A stretch of 64,000 bases of DNA from Brachionus manjavacas (taxonomy: Eukaryota; Rotifera; Eurotatoria; Ploima; Brachionidae): the NCBI GenBank assembly GCA_019054805.1, contig JAHQIY010000004.1, positions 1,302,001 through 1,366,000 on the forward strand. The letters run 5' to 3'. Within the stretch, counting starts at the first letter, position 1, and each line of letters starts with the position of its first letter. This document shows positions 15,395 to 58,980 of this stretch, piece by piece. The notes under the pieces were generated by a model. It was not told the DNA's origin and did not search any database. It saw nothing but the letters and a program-made list of their open reading frames with translations. The position numbers and the translations under genes were made by a program.

Positions 15395-17259
15395 ATGCGC
15401 TGGGGTACCGAACTTTGGGATCGCTTCGAGGACATATCCAACCATGTCCACAAGGGACTGGACTTTTGCGAAAAGTACGAAGACTTCTGGAAGAAAAGAT
15501 GCTCCATAGAGAACTCGTACGCCAAGAGTCTGCGCAAGCTCATCGAATCGTACGAGCCGAAAAAAAAAGAGCTCGACGACAGGTAAACTAATCGACTTAA
15601 ACCGCCTAAATTTGGTCACATGAGTCAACTTTTTTTTAAAGTCCCACTTACATTCAGTGCTTTGTGCGGATGCTGAGCGAGACGCGCGACATAGCCGGCC
15701 AGCACGAGCTGATCGCCGAGAACGTGCAGGAGAAGGTGCTGGGCCGGCTCGGCCACATTGTCAAGGGCCTGAAGGAGGAGCGGCGCAAGTGCGTCGAAGA
15801 CAAGGACAAGTACTTGGCCGAGCACATGGCCTACGACGAGCTCATGGAAAAGTGCCGCGTCAAGTACGAAAAATCGTTCAGAGAGATGGAAAAGGCCGAC
15901 GAGCTGCTGAACAAAGTGGAAAACGACGACTCGGCCAGCAAGAACGACATCAAAAAGCAGAAATGCATCTGCGAGCAAAAGAAGCGGCACTTCGACGCCA
16001 TGGAGGCCGACTACGGCAAGCAGCTGTACGAGGCCAACCGGGCCAAGAACTCGTACTACACCGAGCAGCTGCCGGCCGTGTTCGACGCCCTGCAGAGCAT
16101 CGAGCAGCGCCGCATCCTCCAATTCAAGCAGTGCGTCACCGACTGCGCCAACATCGAGCTCGAAGTGATGCCCAGGATCAGCAAGTGCTTGGGCGAGATC
16201 GACGCCGCCTCGCACTCGATCGACTGCTCGCACGACTCCGACATGCTCGTGTCGCTCTACAAGACCGGCTACTCGATCCCGGCCGACTACGTCTTCGACG
16301 ATCTGAAGCAAGCGAGGCCCAAAGACAGCCGCTCGCTGCACACCACAAGCCTAAATCAAACAGTCCTCTCGAACAACTCCAATTCGTCCAGCTCCTCCAT
16401 CAGCAACACGCACACCATCAATCGGCACAAAAAGTACCGCACTCTGAACCGCATCAAGGGCTTGTTTGCGGTGGCGGGCGCGATCACGCGAGCCGACGAG
16501 CCCGGCGAGCTGCCGCCGGCCCAGATGAAAAACGACCTGGTGAAGAAAATCGCCGCCGCGCACGCCGACATTGACAAGCAGCAGAAGGAGCGCGAAGGCC
16601 TGCTCAAGCTCAAGGACATCTACTCGACGAACGAGAAGTTCGGCGACTCGAACTCGGCCGAACAAGCGCTGCGCAACAACGACCAGAAGCTCAGCAACTT
16701 GCACAAACAGCTGCTCATGTACGAGGAGATGCTGGCTCAAGTGGAGCAAAGCCTGCTGCAAGGACAAACCAGTGTGTACCATCAGTACGATTGTTCGAGC
16801 TCGAGCTCGTCGGGCACTCTGTCCAAGCACCATCACATTTACCAGTCGCCGAGCAGGGCGTCGGTGACGAGCGCGGGCTCGTCGGCGCCCGGCACCCCGG
16901 CCGCTCACACTCAGTGCGACAATGCGTACGCGGTGAGCGGCGTCGGCATGGCCCCGCTGGTCAGCAGCAACAACAGCGAGTCGTTCGACGACGAGGACGA
17001 CGAGAACTACGACTCGCCGAGCGCCGATCACGTGGACCACGCGCACGCGCACTACCATTCGGACGTGGACGGCGTGATCGGCACCGCGCTAGTCATGTAC
17101 TCGTTCGATGGCAATGTGCAGAATTCGATCTGCATCGACGAGAACGAGTCGCTCAATGTGCTCGAGAGGGACAGCGGCGATGGATGGACTCTTGTGCAAA
17201 AGCTCAACGGTGACCGAGGCTATGTGCCCACTGATTACATTCAAATTGTGTACTACTAG
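15395..17259 (+). CDS. CIP4/TOCA-1 family F-BAR, HR1 and SH3 adaptor, two exons
   Basis: Likely a membrane-bending adaptor that links Cdc42 and actin regulators (WASP) at endocytic sites, as known for CIP4/TOCA1/FBP17. Exon 1 is 15395-15582 and exon 2 is 15642-17259. The 59-base intron 15583-15641 begins gtaaac and ends tttaaag. This acceptor is preferred over the AG at 15657 because it keeps frame and restores the family alignment up to the RDIAGQHE block. The model gives 601 residues, the usual length for the family. The start is the ATG giving MRWGTELWDRF, matching the conserved CIP4 start; the reading frame is open a little upstream but without an ATG. F-BAR domain is about residues 1-260, HR1 coiled coil about 358-432, a Ser/His/Asp-rich linker follows, and SH3 is about 545-599 (MYSFDG; GYVPTDYI near the end). 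AATAAA at 17438 is a plausible polyadenylation signal. Coding sequence is strikingly GC-rich compared with its surroundings. Confidence 0.93.
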
Positions 17260-27011: not shown

Positions 27012-28921
27012 TTATTCCTTAAATTTTGGTATATCATCCTCATAGTTTTGATTGTCAATATTGAAAACAACATCATGGTAACCAACACAATTTTTTGCCT
27101 GTTTCTTTAAATTCCACATTTCTCTATGGTCTGAATTTTCTCTCTTTCGAAGTGTGCCGAGCCTAATATTTGCTATGTCTTCATAGTATCCCTTATACTT
27201 ATGATTAATATAGAAATACAGAGGCGTAGAAATTTCACTTAGGAATAGTAAACGACAAGATCGAACACGCTTATTTATATTTAAGGCACTATTTTTCAAA
27301 AGTTTAAACCAACTCTCAACGTTATTATTTGAAAAACGAGTTTTGCCATGAAATTCGCTATTAATCATTAAACCTGTCCATAAAGGCGCCAAATGAAGCT
27401 TCTTTTTTATTATTTCAAAAATTTTAGGTGAATAAAATATGTTCTTTAGCATCAAGACATTGTTTTCATTAATATTATCAATATTTTTCTGATTTTCTCG
27501 TAAAAGATCGAGAAAAAATTTGGCAAAATGTGATTCCTGCAATAAATTTTGATCATTTTTTTCGAAAAAGAAAATTTGTTTCTTGATATCATTTTCCATC
27601 TTTTTCTTATCATAGCATATGTTATTTAACCATTTAGCATTCCTATTGGATAAAAAGAATTATAGCTTTTGGATCTTTTTGGTTAAAATTTCGCTTTCGT
27701 ATTTTGTCATGAATATAACTTGAATACATTCAAAAATTTGGCAAAGTTCCTCGATTGATGTGCTATTCTGAAGTAAGCTAAAGCTACATATAAGAGTTTT
27801 TTAACTTGACCATTTGATTGTAAACTTCCACTCCCAACAATTTTTTCGGTTTCATCAATAACATTTTTTAAGCAAATGAGTCGAACAAATATAGACACAT
27901 GTTTTTATTCGTAAAGAGGCCGACATGTTTTTTTTTACTATGAGTTCGTATGCAAGCACTAAATAATCCATGATTTCTAGATTATTTAAAGCCCTCAAAG
28001 ATGCATTAATGTTAGCTCATGATAAGTCGGGAATGAAAAATTTCGGGTCCGAAAAAAAGAATATTTATGAAATCTTTCGATAATTTTTTTTAAAAAACAG
28101 TAAATTATTATGGTGTCATTTGAACTTGATAAAAAATCGGCTATAGGGATTAAGTTTTTAAAAGTCTGATCATGGCAATCAATAGAATAAAATTTCTTGT
28201 TGATCCTTTAGCTTTAGCATTAATTTACCAGTTGCATCAAAAAACCAAACTGGGTTGTTTTCTTGAATAACACCCCACATTTTTGCCTGTTTTTCTGATA
28301 CCAAAAGCGCGCCAAAAGGATTTGAAACCACTTCTTGTATGTATCCTTCATTTAAAGACTTTGATGTTTTCGGTACCAAAAGATCAAATACTAGTTTTGT
28401 AGCGTCAGAATCAATTCGAAGATCATTATTTAGCTGAAATCGGTGTCTGAATTGACTTTTGAGTTTTCTTAGAGACTCATAACTAATTTCACATTGATTA
28501 AAATCTTCATTTTCTAAAAAATCGTTTTCGGTTTGAAAACTGATAAGACCTTTAGAACAAATATCTTTTTGAATGGCTTTTCGTTTAATTCTCGATAGAT
28601 TATTTGATAAAATTGCAAAATTTACTTTTTCTTTACAAAAATTTGTCTCTGAAATTAATATCAATTTGCAATTGGAATTTTCAAATGGTTCTGTCTTAAT
28701 AAACGATTTAAACTCTTTGCTAGAACGAACACACTTCATAGTTCCAATCCAAAAATTTTTTGAATAATTATCACATCTAATAGAACAAAAATAATTGTTT
28801 TTGAGCTTAAATAAGCAATTTATTCCATCTGATTTAATTTTCTTTGATATTATTGAATTTGCTGCTGATAAAAATTTTTTCCTTCTTGCTGAAGTTATTG
28901 TTTTTTCTAAATTTTTCCATG
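27012..28921 (-). pseudogene. DDE transposase-like protein, MULE-type fold (relic)
   Basis: Open pieces are 28179-28921, about 27900-28178 with one stop, 27707-27898 and 27012-27599. Motifs in order: NPVWFFDATGKLML (first Asp, near 28240); FFIPDLS-stop-ANINASL (second Asp, near 28040); YICSTHLLKNVIDE across a frameshift (a C..H pair between second Asp and Glu, as in MULE-like transposases); and APLWTGLM then NNNVESWFKLLK (third acidic residue, near 27320). This order fits an RNase-H-fold DDE transposase. The N-terminal part before DATG is not recognised. The 33 or so residues upstream of CPWKNLEK belong to the terminal repeat of the neighbouring MULE, not to this protein. One stop and at least two frameshifts suggest a dead copy. 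Confidence 0.6.
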
Positions 28922-29271
28922 GACAGTAATAAACTAGTATCTCAATAATAATAAAAAATACCACAATTTTAATAAAACATCCACAATTTTTATAATTTTT
29001 CACACTTTTTCCACTAATTTAATTAAATCGCAACTATTATAGTACTTTTGACACAATTTTAATAAAATGACAATATATTCATTAAAAGTGCCACAAATTT
29101 AGTTAATTATTAATTGATAATTACCGATAAGTTTTTTTCTATTTAATGATAAATTTTTAAAAAAAATATTGTCAGAAAATCCAAAAAAATGAGTGAAACA
29201 CTATCTAAGGAGAGTGTATTAGAAGATCCAGCAAACCAAACATTAGAATATGTTGATCAAGATTGGACAGA
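28920..29271. repeat. Left inverted end of the MULE
   Basis: Reverse complement of 30858-31188, apart from small indels. It includes a + strand copy of the transposase start. Confidence 0.8.
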
Positions 29272-50054: not shown

Positions 50055-50573
50055 AAATTAATTTGAATATATAAAATCACAATAAAAAGATTAGAACATT
50101 TCCAAGTTGAAATCCCGTTTAAGGAATGATTTATGTATTTAAAATTTAAGTTTTCAAACAAGTTAACTATGCTGGATGGCAAAGCCGACAATGCAGTGTG
50201 TGGGAATTCAGCCTCGAGAGTGTGAAATATTTGTGGAGCAACTCCAGTTGAGATGAACCAGATGAAAATTTTATATAATAAAAAAATTAATCAAGATGCT
50301 ATTTTACTCGGTATTTCACCCCTCCATATGTGGATTCGTTGTTTCGAATTTTACACCTTTCATATAGACTGGAATTTGAATGTTGGCAAGTCAGAAAATC
50401 AAATGAAGAGCATCATTTATAATGTATAAACTTAAGAAATCAAAAGTTCAAAAAGAATTTAGAGAAAAAATGGGGCTAATTGTTGACATGCCAAAGATTC
50501 TGGGTTTGGAACTTCAAATGATGGTAATACATCTAGAAGAGCTTTTCGAAATTATAGAATCTTTTCAGAAATA
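50055..50573 (+). repeat. Block B, 519-bp transposase fragment duplicated from the Transib element
   Basis: Matches 56158-56676 along its whole length. It encodes the zinc-binding CNICGATP and SPLHMWIRCFEFY part of the RAG1-like transposase. It joins block A directly at 50054/50055 and stops abruptly at the start of the second block A, so it is a rearrangement fragment and not a separate insertion. Confidence 0.9.
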
Positions 50574-52558
50574 AAAATTGATTGTCATATAAAAATTAAA
50601 CGGGGTCCGGGGCAGTGCCCTGGTTTAGGGACTAGGGTATGTTGTAGATTAGAGAACTTTTAGTTAAAATTAAAATTATTAATTAAACTTTATATGAATT
50701 AAAATCTTTAATTTAATTATCCATATGAAGTTTTTATTTATTTTCATATGACAATTTAATTTTTGATATGACGGGTTAATATAGATTCTTAAATTAAATG
50801 ATAATTTTTTTATTTTATTGAAAAATTATTATTAAAAATTGATATAAAAAAAATTTTAACAGTTAAATTAAATGTCTGTATAAACACCATTTCTTGTAAG
50901 AAAAACTTGAATGATGAATTTGAATTTTTTTTCTTAAATTTTTTTTATTCCTTTTTTTATGATGATTTTTATTTTTAAGTTTTCAAGAAATTTTTATTTA
51001 TAATAAATAGTATATAATTATTGTAGTAGCAATTTTATTTTCTTTAAGTAGCAAAAAAAGTGGTGAATATTAATCAAACTGGAGCAAAAATATTTTTTTT
51101 AGTAAATATTTTTTTAACGATTCGTTTCTTTGTTTCGCACCATTTAAAATCAAGTGCCTATTAATGGGTTAATATTTCAGGCATTGTTTTGAACTTTTTT
51201 TTGTTAAAAAATTTGGAGTCCTGTCACGTGACCAATTTTCTGTCAAATTGTCCAAAAATTTGTGATGGTTTAGATTTAAAGTACAAAACACCCTTTGATT
51301 CAATCATTAACACGCCAAACTCAAACTTTTCGCAATAAAAAATTAACAAAGAGATAGCGATACATTTTTTAATTATTTTTTTTTTTTACTGGTTAAATTT
51401 TTTGTAGGAACATGCTAAATGTTAAATATTAGCAAAAAAATCACAAATAAAATATATATCAAAGTCGAAATTAATTTCGCTTTTCGTAAATAAATAATTA
51501 TCAATTAATGAACAAGAAAATAAAGTAAGATCTAAGTTATGTACAACTAAACTTAGATCTTAACGAATTCATATTGTACGAAACGAATAACAATCCCAAA
51601 TTTAATTCATTGTTCCAAAACTTTAATATTTTCCTAAATGGAAGATAGTTCTGGGTCAATACGCTTATCCAACAACAACCGCTAATCTTTATATTTATTT
51701 ATGTTTTTTATTTTATTTTTAATTTTTACTCGAAACACATTTAAACAATATTTGATCCTTTTTAATAATAATTAGGCTAAAAAGAAGGACTTTGTTCCAT
51801 TCTGAGTAAAGTAAGTGATTTAGGTTGAATTATAAAATTGAACTCACCCCTAATATTTTTTGATAAAAAATTAATTTACTCGGATCAATATCCATAACAT
51901 ATATTATTTTTTAAATTGAAGCTAAAATAAAAATGAAACCAGCATCCGCAAATTTTTGAATTTTCATAAGTGATGATTATAGCCTGAATGATGATTATAG
52001 CCTGAATGATGATTATAGCTAACTCAAAATCAGTGAGAGTTTTCTGTACGTTAAGCGTATAATTATTACGAAACAAAATGTCTTTTACGCTTGTAAAGGC
52101 TTTGATGAAAGTTTCTCGCTCTTTGTTTTGGAGCAGAATACAACAATAGAAATAGAAAAAAAAACAATGGAAATTATTTTTTTCATTAAATATTAAATAT
52201 TTGAAATTAAATATAGAGAAAGCGATGTGATTAAAAATTTAAACATGGACGAGAAGTTTTAAATGCAAAGTTGTGTTTTGTTTTACAACGCTGCAATATC
52301 CAACAAGTGAATAGTAGATTCTATCGAGTAAGGGATAAATAGGTTAATTTAGATTAGAATGGGTGAGTCTTTTGGCAAAATTTGGTGAAACCCTTTTTAC
52401 CCCTTAAGCAAATAGAATAACTATTTTAGATAAAGTTCGCGAGGAGCAAAACTACAGCACTATCTGAATTTCGGCAAACCGACTTTAAAATATTAATCTG
52501 CATACTTGAAAACCTAGAAAAACGGTTTTTTATGTGGGGTGAAAAAATATTTTTTGAC
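50574..52558. repeat. Block A, second copy
   Basis: Copy of 48089-50054. It is followed by 3.6 kb (52559-56157) that is absent after the first copy, and then by the intact counterpart of block B. The 52559-54302 part of this insert is AT-rich, includes a short C-rich run (CCCCACCCCC near 52560) and GGGGTTTACCCCCCGACCCC near 52784, and has no recognisable gene. Confidence 0.95.
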
Positions 52559-53790: not shown

Positions 53791-54302
53791 AAACACGATC
53801 ACAGCACAATTAAACAGTCAAACAGTTGAACGGAAGAACGGTTGAGCAGCGTTGTATTCAGCATCAATCTGAGTTGTTCCAATTTTTAAACGAATTCTGC
53901 ATTTGGTTCAGTTCAAGGTAAGTACGCCTTTAATAATAGTTTAAGCTCTTCTTTTCTAATAAATTAAAAGAAGGAAAAAATTTGGAAAGGAATGAAAGTG
54001 ATTAGATTATGTATATTTTTCAATAAATTATTTCTTACATTTTTCTCTAATTATTTTTTTCTCTAATTAATATTTAATAAAAAAATTTTCTTAGAAAACA
54101 CAAGTTTTTCTCATTAATTTTTCTCAGATAATTTTTTCTCAGAAATGAAAGATGCCAAATTAATTATGACGTGTTTTTCCTAGTTAGGTTCATTTCTTAA
54201 AAATGTCCCGACATTGTTTTGCTCAATGAATTAAAGATAGATTTGAGTGAGACAAATTTTTATCTTGATTTATAATTATCAGTTCGTTACAAAACCACGC
54301 AG

Positions 54303-54307
54303 CAATT
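54303..54307. repeat. Left target-site duplication CAATT of the Transib element
   Basis: The five bases CAATT directly precede CACAGTG. The same five bases follow the right terminus at 57526-57530, which supports transposition rather than chance similarity. Confidence 0.8.
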
Positions 54308-57300
54308 CACAGTGATTTAATTTAGACCAAAAATGGTCATTTAACAAAAAATATCAAATTTTGAGATAAGATACTTTTTAAAATAGTAATTAACCCAAAA
54401 AAGTCTATATTTTTATTTAAAAAAAAAAACTTGATATTTCATAATAGACATCTAAAAAAATCTCATTGAAAATGACTAAAAATCAACTTTTTTTTTCAAA
54501 AAAATGACGCAATTTTTTAAATCTAAATAAAAATAATATGCATTAACATAAAAACTTTTATTTTTTCATAGTATATAGATTTTAATTTCTCGTTTTAAAA
54601 AAATATTTTCTTTTTTGATTTTTATTTTTTCTTTGGTCTGTTATTTGGCCAAAACTCATCTAAAAAATCGCGTTTTTTCAAAAGTTTGATGGTATATTAT
54701 GTCACGTTCTCCACATTTCTCCAAGCTGAGTTTTAAAAGAACTTAATCTACTCTGATTCAAGTTTATGGGAATATATAGGTTCCCGCCGGATACAGCTAT
54801 TTTTTAATCTAAATATGGTCTTTTATCAAAAATTGCATTTTTAGAAAATTTTTAAATTGAATTAAAATAATTGTTTTAAGTTAAATTTTTTGAAGAAAAA
54901 ATATAAAAAAATAGTAAAAATCTAAAAAATGTTTTTAATTTAGAACCTTTTAATTAAAAAACTCAAAAATAATTCTCAAAACTTAAAATGATAACAGACA
55001 TTTCTCGCCGTGAATTGTACGAATATGCTTTCAACAATAATTTGATATTTAAGCATACGTTTTTTGATGCTAATTCTAAGAAGGCAACAATAAATTTTCT
55101 TAAAAAATTTGAAATTGATTGCAATGAATCCAATGAAAAAATGTTACAGAAAATATCAATTTCACCTTTTATAAAATTTATGAAAAATTAAAAAAAGTCT
55201 ACTTTAAACATGATGTTTTTAAAAAATCGAATGAAAAGTGGCTTTCTAGTAAAATTAATTTAACCGATAAAAATTTAAGATGACAAGAACGTCAAAATCT
55301 AGTTTGAAAATAAATAGTAAACTTTTTTGTAAAATATAAAAATTTCAACTTCAATTTTATTTTTAAAGAGAAAAAGCGAAAAGTTAAATCGTGGGAATTT
55401 TTAAAATTTTTAAAAATCTGCTAAAGAAAACGAAAACTTGTTGCTGATCTCGCTAAAGGAAATTCGTATGAAAAGCTGTTTAGGGCTTTAATTTATAATG
55501 CCAGAGTAAATAATCGTTTAAATCTTGTGAGAGTATTAAAATATTCATATAAAAGACAAGATGGAGATAAAGAAATTTGTAAAATGATTGATTCGAAATT
55601 TTTAGTTAAATTGACTGCAAATGAAGCACTTTCGATTTTTATTTCTTGCAACTTAACTCAAGCGTCGTATCAATTAATTCGAAACATAGCTAGACAAAAA
55701 AAAGCAGACATTTTTCCGACATTTGACGAAGTTTTATGTGCCAAAAACGAATGTTTTAACAAAGAAATTAATGTAGACGAGTAAAAGCTGAGGTTAATGT
55801 TCAAGATCTTTTAAATATAACTGCTCGTCGTCTCATTCAAATTGAATCAGTTTCAAAATCGTTTTAAAAAAAGCAGAGGATATGTCACAAAATGGGGTTA
55901 ATGCCAGATTAGAAATTGATTTAAATTTAATTTCAAAATGGGGATTCGATGGAGCTAGTGGTTATGGTAAATTTAAACAACGTTTCGAAAATAGCCCTTT
56001 TGAATCATCGGATGAAAGTTTGTTCACGTCATCATTGGTTCCGCTTTTTTTGTGTGACGAAAATAACAAAAATTTGTGGATTAACAATATACCATCATCT
56101 CCGCGTTTTTGTCGGCCTATTAGATTTCAATTTATAAAAAAAATATCAAATCAGATAAAAATTAATTTGAATATATAAAATCACAATAAAAAGATTAGAA
56201 CATTTCCAAGTTGAAATCCCGTTTAAGGAATGATTTATGTATTTAAAATTTAAGTTTTCAAACAAGTTAACTATGCTGGATGGCAAAGCCGACAATGCAG
56301 TGTGTGGGAATTCAGCCTCGAGAGTGTGAAATATTTGTGGAGCAACTCCAGTTGAGATGAACCAGATGAAAATTTTATATAATAAAAAAATTAATCAAGA
56401 TGCTATTTTACTCGGTATTTCACCCCTCCATATGTGGATTCGTTGTTTCGAATTTTACACCTTTCATATAGACTGGAATTTGAATGTTGGCAAGTCAGAA
56501 AATCAAATGAAGAGCATCATTTATAATGTATAAACTTAAGAAATCAAAAGTTCAAAAAGAATTTAGAGAAAAAATGGGGCTAATTGTTGACATGCCAAAG
56601 ATTCTGGGTTTGGAACTTCAAATGATGGTAATACATCTAGAAGAGCTTTTCGAAATTATAGAATCTTTTCAGAAATAACTGGTATTAGCGAATTTTTCAT
56701 CCGTCGGCTTTTCCTCACTTTGTGTGCTATCAATTCTACAAATAAAATAGATGCAAATAAATTTTAGGATTACAATCAAGAAACTTTTAATTTTTACATA
56801 AGAAATTACAATTGGTTTTACATGCCAGTATCTGTGCACAAATTGCTATTTCATGGGCCTGAAGTAGTCACTCAACTTTTATATCCAGTTGGATTATTCA
56901 GTGAAGAAGCACAAGAATCTCGAAATAAGGATAGTAAAAGCATTCGTTTACATCACACACGAAAGGCAAATAGAGTATTAACTAATTTAGACCATTTTAA
57001 ACATTTGCTTGTTACTAGTGATCCTTTATTATCAACAATAAGTTCAAATATTGGTAGATGTCGTAACAAAAAAAAGGAGAAAATTGTAAATATTGTTGAA
57101 TTAAAACGGAGAGTATTATGAGCAAGATGAATAAATAGAAGACCTTGATGAACCTGACTATTTAGAAAACTGTCAAATTCAAAATACTGAAGAAAATTTA
57201 ATTCATGAAGAACAATTTGATTTACCATATTATTTTTATGATAACTATAATAAAATTTTATGATTGAAAAAATTTTTTATTTTTATTAAAACTCTGTTAA

Positions 57301-57525
57301 TTTCATATAATTTTAAAAAAAAATTAACTTAATATTTTGATGCTAAAAAAATTATTTAAAATTAAATATCAAAAATACTTTTAAAATGAAAAAAATCCAA
57401 AATTTATAAAAACTAACCAGAAATTCGAAATCTACACATTTTTTTACCAAAAGGGACTCAAAATTAAGAGAAAATAATTAATTTTTAAAAATTTGACCAT
57501 TTTTGAGAAAAATTAAATCACTGTG
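54308..57525 (+). mobile_element. Transib-type DNA transposon with RAG1-like transposase
   Basis: Both ends carry inverted repeats starting CACAGTG (left 54308-54314; right, on the minus strand, 57525-57519), continuing ATTTAATTT and, after a 13-base spacer counted from the heptamer, CAAAAATGG (54328-54336 and 57505-57497). The flanking bases are CAATT on both sides (54303-54307 and 57526-57530), a perfect 5-bp target duplication. Transib elements are known for 5-bp duplications and for termini resembling the V(D)J recombination signal heptamer CACAGTG, and their transposases are related to RAG1. The internal coding region (54988-57260) encodes such a protein in broken frames. Total length 3218 bases, within the usual Transib range. 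The right end was later duplicated in tandem (57416-57745). Confidence 0.85.
54988..57260 (+). pseudogene. RAG1/Transib-like transposase, broken by stops and frameshifts
   Basis: DDE transposase of the Transib/RAG1 group, which cuts and pastes DNA at CACAGTG-type ends. Starts at ATG 54988 (MITDISRREL). Open pieces lie at 54988-55188, 55500-55781, 55882-56178, 56250-56530, 56570-56765 and 56822-57118. Recognisable parts in order: KWGFDGASG (about 55936-55962, corresponding to the first catalytic Asp region, RAG1 D600); SPRFCRPIRFQF; a zinc-binding CNICGATP segment (near 56325), matching RAG1 CTLCDAT; SPLHMWIRCFEFY (near 56420), matching the RAG1 region around D708; GFGTSNDGNTSRRAF; and LFSEEAQESRNK (near 56900), matching RAG1 SEGNESGNK with the catalytic Glu. 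At the D708 position I read Trp, so either the second Asp lies elsewhere in this family or it is lost. Several stops and frame changes separate the pieces, so the copy is probably inactive. Confidence 0.75.
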
Positions 57526-57745
57526 CAATTGAATGCAAGATTTTTCTTATGAGGAATTCAATTCCGAACTCCTTTGTATAACCAGAAATTCGAAATCTAC
57601 ACATTTTTTTACCAATAGGGACTCAAAATTAAGAGAAAATAATTAATTTTTAAAAATTTGACCATTTTTGAGAAAAATTAAATCACTGTGCAATTGAATG
57701 CAAGATTTTTCTAATGAGGAATTCAATTCCGAACTCCTTTGTATA
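57416..57745. repeat. Two tandem 165-bp units spanning the Transib right end
   Basis: Units 57416-57580 and 57581-57745 are nearly identical; one differs by AAAAGGGAC versus AATAGGGAC and TCTTATG versus TCTAATG. Each contains the CACTGTG terminus (57519-57525 and 57684-57690), the following CAATT and 50 bases of flank. The duplication therefore happened after the transposon inserted. Confidence 0.9.
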
Positions 57746-58980
57746 CAACCAAATTTAGGAAAGAATAATGAATTAGTCATTATAATCCACCCAATGTGCT
57801 TCTGAACTTTGAGCTTTTTAAAATAAAGGGTGTTCATAAAATCTCGGTGCTTTTTTTGAATTGATAAAAAAATATGCTTGCGGTAGACCGATCCCCATAA
57901 AATTTTACACAGGGTTACTTTGGGGTATCTAGAATAAAAATACATGGTCATCTTTTCAGTTTAAGCCTTCCTGAAATAAGCAGTCAAATAACCTTGAACT
58001 TCCTCAAACCCTCAAAATATCCTCTAGCCTTTCGATTTTCAAAATGTATTTTTACATATTGTCGAATAGATAATTGAATGAGGATTACAACGATATATAG
58101 ATTATGTCTGTACGATGTTCTGTTCAAAAGTTATGGTCAAAAAACTCTTGATATTACCTTAATTTCCGAGGGGTGAAAAAAAAGGGGTAATTTCACTTTA
58201 TTAGCAATAACTTTTGAACGCAATAAGCTATCCTCTTAAAATTTCAAACTTAAGTAAAAATGAAACTAAGTAATAAAATAAAATTTAAATCAAGTTCATC
58301 TATATAACTCTTCGCCTTTTAGACCTATTTTTCTATCTTTATTAATCAAATTGAATTTAATTTTGTAATTTTTAGAAATTTTGAGTAAAAATTTTATTCA
58401 AATACTATTTATTTACGGCTACTATATATTTTTTGCCAGCACAATAAATTTATTTTGTCAGTCCAAAATAGATTTAATAGTTCACTTAAATCAGTTTTTT
58501 TGTCATCCCCAAAAAATTAACCCCTTTATTTACAACATTAGTCTAAATCTTAAAACTGTTACTTTGGACCTTTTTTAGATTTAAAAAAAATTGATTTTAC
58601 TGACTGTGTGGCTGTAAGAAAGCTACATAACATTCGTATTTATCATTATAGAAATAATTAAAAGGCATTTGTATTTGGTGAAACTAAAATTTTTTTAGAA
58701 CAATAATTAGGCAAAATACGGATCAAAAAACTATTTTAGATTTAAAATTAAAAGCAAGAGATAACCTTTAAATTTCACACATTTCAGAAGACCAGAAAGA
58801 GATTTTTCGAACTGTTTAAGAGATGACGCTGAAAGAGCTGTAATAGTTTGGACACAATAAATCAGCCGATGAATCGAGAGAAATGGCACCTCATATTTAA
58901 ATCACAAACAGGAAAAAAGAGGATTTGCTAATCTAGTTATGATTCTCGTTTAAGTTTCTTAAATGATCATTAATCTTATT

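Follow-up and report, generated by a model that had tools for sequence, protein, structure and literature searches.

What is the 3.2-kb element with CACAGTG-headed ends in the genome of the monogonont rotifer Brachionus manjavacas, and is it still a working transposon? The element lies within a stretch of 64,000 nucleotides (hereafter, the window), and an earlier note drawn from the sequence had described it as a near-complete Transib transposon with a RAG1-like transposase. With a probability of about 97%, we consider it an inactive copy of a cut-and-paste transposon of the Transib superfamily, residing in a Brachionus genome. Its transposases are related to the recombinase responsible for antibody gene rearrangement in vertebrates. 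The Transib identity is secure and the activity is gone; a known family gains a member, which is no surprise. The coordinates of all features are collected in Table 1.

Table 1. Features of the element and its surroundings, in window coordinates
Feature	Position	Strand	Remarks
Transib transposon copy	54308..57525	+	3,218 bp, full length from end to end; protein frame decayed
Left target site duplication, CAATT	54303..54307	+	
Right target site duplication, CAATT	57526..57530	+	
Left terminal inverted repeat, CACAGTG at head	54308..54352	+	heptamer 54308-54314
Right terminal inverted repeat, CACAGTG at head (minus strand)	57481..57525	-	heptamer 57519-57525
Tandem duplication of right end, CAATT and ~50 nt of flank	~57410..57749	+	165-bp period; edges approximate
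Transposase coding remains	54988..57260	+	several frames with stops; limits from the earlier note; tblastn homology ~55428-57103
N-terminal-side piece, 119 aa	55425..55781	+	tblastn alignment to relatives P0052 and P0055
FDGASG piece (first catalytic Asp region)	55882..56175	+	6PQN match, E 3e-17
LDGKA motif (second catalytic Asp region)	56276..56290	+	aligns with IDGK of 6PQN via the sister copy
NICGATP piece	56330..56530	+	stop codon directly before; weak 6PQN match alone, E 0.2
C-terminal piece, SEEAQESRNKD (catalytic Glu region)	56768..57118	+	6PQN match, E 9e-21
Host repeat, left part (LINE-like, endonuclease region)	54196..54305	+	
Host repeat, right continuation	57531..57823	+	interrupted by the tandem duplication
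520-bp fragment	50055..50574	+	100% identical to element 56159-56678; direct orientation, ~6.1 kb upstream

The boundaries proposed in the earlier note proved exact, with CACAGTG at the head of both inverted ends and a perfect duplication of CAATT abutting them; the description "near-complete" holds for the length of the element and fails for its reading frame, which is in many pieces. Read inward, both ends equal CACAGTGATTTAATTT (16 nt), and the two 45-nt arms pair at 35 positions, being identical over positions 1-16 and again in a block at 21-32. Taken alone, the 16-nt perfect inverted pair is near chance level (mean 12.3 and maximum 17 in 40 first-order Markov shuffles) and is unimpressive because the window is AT-rich, the base composition of the element being 25.5% G+C versus 26.6% for the whole window. 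The heptamer CACAGTG occurs four times in the window versus 1.55 expected, a count reached in 8 of 100 shuffles, and a second CACAGTG end, at 57684-57690, results from the tandem duplication of the right end. Chance is excluded by a combination of observations: the perfect abutting duplications, the transposase homology inside, and the recurrence of these ends in two further copies. The target sites of the window copy (CAATT) and of one of those copies (TTCAA) are AT-rich rather than GC-biased, as judged from two sites in an AT-rich genome; GC bias of Transib targets, as stated in PMC8289069, is a reported tendency and no defining rule.

The interior of the element contains the remains of a transposase. 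Two of the four window pieces and the open stretch of a sister copy elsewhere in the assembly (C7, below) gave significant matches in PDB sequence searches, and in each case the only significant match was HzTransib (PDB 6PQN and five further entries), a protein that we take to be from Helicoverpa zea and that the PDB lists as a DNA-mediated transposase. These matches bear out the Transib identity and favor Transib over an unrelated DDE family. The next PDB match of interest, to the C-terminal piece, was the RAG1L chain 6b40 at E 0.49, while the N-terminal-side piece returned no match in the same database. The alignment of the sister copy with 6PQN (E 1.1e-71) covers 348 core residues (chain residues 127-464), including the FDGAS, DGK and SEEA-E-RNKD blocks. 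FDGASG (55945-55962), LDGKA and SEEAQESRNKD (56900-56932), which we take to enclose the catalytic acids D, D and E, are still legible in the window copy and aligned with 6PQN; the frame of FDGASG differs from that shared by the other two. Among the motifs named in the earlier note, FDGASG and SEEAQESRNK are present and CNICGATP is literally absent, with a stop codon preceding NICGATP (56330 onward); the whole CNICGATP motif is readable in the sister copy. No intact frame was found among the family copies listed from the assembly: stops and frameshifts interrupt the window copy, and neither the C7 copy nor the C3 copy is complete.

The RAG1 profile check that had been suggested for the element gave no support, as the Pfam RAG1 model matched none of seven window pieces and did not match the C7 stretch. 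This model is too narrow to decide Transib membership, since among four relatives it matched the moth protein P0116 (1.1e-7) and missed P0052, P0053 and P0065. The scan of the seven window pieces against Pfam produced only sub-threshold matches, namely APOBEC4_like (E 0.021), treated as chance, and DUF1280 (PF06918, E 0.0058), which may mark a true N-terminal similarity because some relatives, such as P0071 and P0082, carry it as a precomputed label. For the C7 stretch, too, no Pfam family passed its cut-off. Another precomputed label, PF26100, is attached to many relatives, and the Pfam scan did not return it for P0053 or P0116. Counted against the Transib reading are the silence of the Pfam RAG1 model, the two of four window pieces that are weak or absent in PDB searches, and the AT-rich targets; furthermore, the ends are defined from three copies, a small sample, and the target duplication is perfect in just one case.

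A search of the assembly (114.2 Mb, 61 contigs) with the element yielded at least 14 matching stretches, distributed among the window copy (one), the C7 copy (one), the C3 copy (four), the 520-bp fragment (one), the duplicated right end (one) and six short stretches of 69-93% identity. The C7 copy (C7:2378306-2380939) is 94% identical to the window copy; it lacks the first ~585 nt, and with them the left end, runs into unrelated sequence there, and has CACAGTG at its right end and an open stretch of 378 aa. On the minus strand of the corresponding locus (L021, 3626-4484) lie adjoining open frames (100 aa, 114 aa and others) of another element or gene. The C3 copy (C3:753309-754586) is internally deleted and has CACAGTG at both ends, flanked by TTCAA and TTCAG. 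The ends anticipated for other copies were therefore recovered in both, on one side in C7, and the anticipated 5-bp duplication recurs in C3 at four of five positions, with one mismatch. The 520-bp fragment is far closer to the element than the other copies are and so reflects either local duplication in the recent past or an error in the assembly. Protein searches added a diverged relic on C14 (63% over 41 aa and 49% over 78 aa) and a single match on C12 (E 0.3). Judged by sequence, the window, C7 and C3 copies, the 520-bp fragment and the diverged C14 relic constitute one low-copy family. The window copy differs from C7 by substitution at 96 of 2,601 aligned positions (3.7%), and substitutions separate these two from C3 at 7.8-7.9%. 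Looking genome-wide for the 16-nt end was uninformative when as many as two mismatches were allowed (389 matches versus 637 in a reversed control). Exact matches number seven, six of them in known copies; the seventh, CACAGTGATTTAATTT at C13:3112718-3112733, is possibly a solo end or a chance occurrence.

Several other readings of these data have to be weighed. A RAG-like (RAGL) transposon, with a RAG1L gene and a lost RAG2L gene, would share the CAC-headed ends and 5-bp duplications, which are common to both groups according to PMC7204232, and would agree with the weak similarity of the C-terminal piece to 6b40. However, HzTransib matches that same piece at E 9e-21, and the sister copy, with its far stronger HzTransib match, shows no RAG1L chain up to E 1. 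The C7 stretch is also 38-52% identical to the 120 relatives listed (of 235 found), whereas Transib is reported in that paper as <22% identical to RAG1 and RAG1L. On the minus strand, the side expected for a convergent RAG2L gene, no stop-free stretch of the element exceeds 107 aa, the length of the longest one, and a RAG2-like partner appears unlikely in an element of 3.2 kb; a genome search with the Pfam RAG2 model gave no matches, as it did in 14 control genomes, and was hence uninformative. On balance, the RAGL reading is very improbable.

More remote still is a domesticated Transib-derived gene in place of a dead transposon. The 378-aa open stretch of the sister copy could be read in that sense, but stops and frameshifts break up the window copy, and the differences between the window and C7 copies number 16, 7 and 10 at codon positions 1, 2 and 3 (~370 positions each, within the C7 open stretch). 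Between C3 and C7, the corresponding numbers are 31, 24 and 30 (~288 each). There is no excess at third positions, as in pseudogenes, and therefore no sign of protein selection since the copies split. Divergence of this kind would also suit a Transib copy that was dead before its insertion and was mobilised in trans by the transposase of another copy; the internally deleted copy points in the same direction, as any move after the deletion must have been in trans. Yet the assembly matches listed include no intact source copy, and such a history is indistinguishable here from decay after insertion, so that we grant mobilisation in trans a small but real chance and favor a Transib copy that decayed where it had inserted.

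The placement of this copy among its relatives was explored with a tree of 54 rows, comprising the C7 stretch and 53 of the 120 listed relatives (the best 45 and eight named lower ones); resemblance to the C7 stretch governed the choice of rows, and the midpoint root serves for drawing only. The listed relatives include insect, Hydra and Brachionus calyciflorus proteins, the last represented by P0065, an unnamed protein with 49% identity over 74% of the C7 query. In this tree the C7 stretch, P0053 and P0065 form a group with a support of 94/77, which is under the starred level, and a 13-row clade containing these three is set apart (99/93) from a clade of 41 rows to which Hydra and all named insects of the tree belong. 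To call the smaller clade "rotifer" is a guess, P0065 being its only organism-named row besides C7. P0065 resembles the present element in its genus and its grouping with the C7 copy and differs in that the branches are long: it belongs to a separate family and is no copy of this element. Compared with Hztransib, with which it shares the core homology described above, the element in the rotifer has diverged and lost its activity, and it goes unrecognised by the Pfam RAG1 model.

The heptamer of the element is identical to the consensus of the vertebrate recombination signal sequence (RSS), CACAGTG, as cited in PMC8289069, where the Hztransib ends are likewise said to resemble the RSS heptamer. 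The likeness to vertebrate RAG1 and RSS ends there, as the pieces have no Pfam RAG1 match and the ends no convincing 12/23 nonamer arrangement. With a spacer of 12, each end agrees with ACAAAAACC at 6 of 9 positions, a level reached by 2.5% of all 9-mers in the window; this spacing is weak because 19 spacers were examined and the two ends repeat each other. Transib ends have symmetric spacers of 20-22 bp, and a few have a 12/23 asymmetry, according to PMC8355894; the symmetric 12-bp spacing hinted at here fits neither type. There is only a slim chance that Brachionus harbors an old Transib lineage of its own, apart from those of insects and Hydra, with ends in which the exact RSS heptamer and an A-rich block stand 12 bp apart, on the left as on the right. 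If true, such a symmetric RSS-like end would be of use in studying the origin of the 12/23 signals.

The sequence surrounding the element belongs to an old, high-copy repeat. The left flank (54196-54305) matches 39 other places at ~92% identity (292 candidates at first look, of which 40 were scored), and in all four element-free copies of the repeat that were compared (L075-L078) the sequence of the right flank comes after that of the left, as it does here. The repeat is a LINE-like retrotransposon, since an open frame in L077 carries endonuclease domains (PF14529, E 3.5e-16; PF03372, E 1.1e-10). Between the two flank matches, the element-free copies contain 46-49 nt that are missing or changed at the window locus. 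A 37-bp deletion between two AAT repeats of an L075-like copy, together with a 4-bp difference, would yield the junction CACGCAGCAATTGAATGCAAG, and CAATT would be the target duplicated on insertion; the host-repeat copy had thus probably lost ~40 bp before the Transib insertion, although the deletion may instead have followed it. When an empty site carrying this deletion was sought with up to three mismatches, two matches came back, one being the right flank of the element itself and the other the duplicated copy of that flank. Because an element-free site with the deletion was not found, the deletion-first order is drawn from the junction sequence itself. Beyond the host repeat, ~57818-57990 matches another repeated sequence at 82-91% identity in many places.

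By analogy with studied relatives, from which the cutting and joining chemistry is borrowed, a RAG1-core-like DDE transposase, supplied while the family was alive, would have recognised the CACAGTG-headed ends. The element would have been excised by nick-and-hairpin cleavage, after the manner of Hztransib and RAG, and its joining to staggered target DNA would have produced the 5-bp duplication. What the locus itself displays of this mechanism is the pair of ends and the duplication. Insertion would have taken place in a copy of the LINE-like repeat, probably one already shortened, and would have been followed by decay through stops and frameshifts and by the tandem duplication of the right end.

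The locus documents Transib in a monogonont rotifer, together with the ends of the element, its target duplication and the repeat that hosts it, and contributes one spiralian record to the distribution of transposases related to RAG1, leaving the picture of the origin of V(D)J recombination unchanged. The record of the lineage is extended, as had been claimed, only modestly, given that the B. calyciflorus relative P0065 is already in public protein databases. Transib in a rotifer or in Brachionus was not encountered in the titles or abstract openings of the matching literature, where a passing mention elsewhere in the text is possible, and the word "Transib" is absent from the main text of the rotifer genome and transposon papers PMC11954553, PMC7943196 and PMC6555955.

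Elsewhere in the window, positions 15664-17259 contain a frame of 531 aa resembling formin-binding protein 1, 84% identical to a Brachionus plicatilis protein; this one protein points to a host in Brachionus or a very close relative. On the minus strand, open frames of 195 and 274 aa (27012-27599 and 28179-29003) are perhaps remnants of another transposon.
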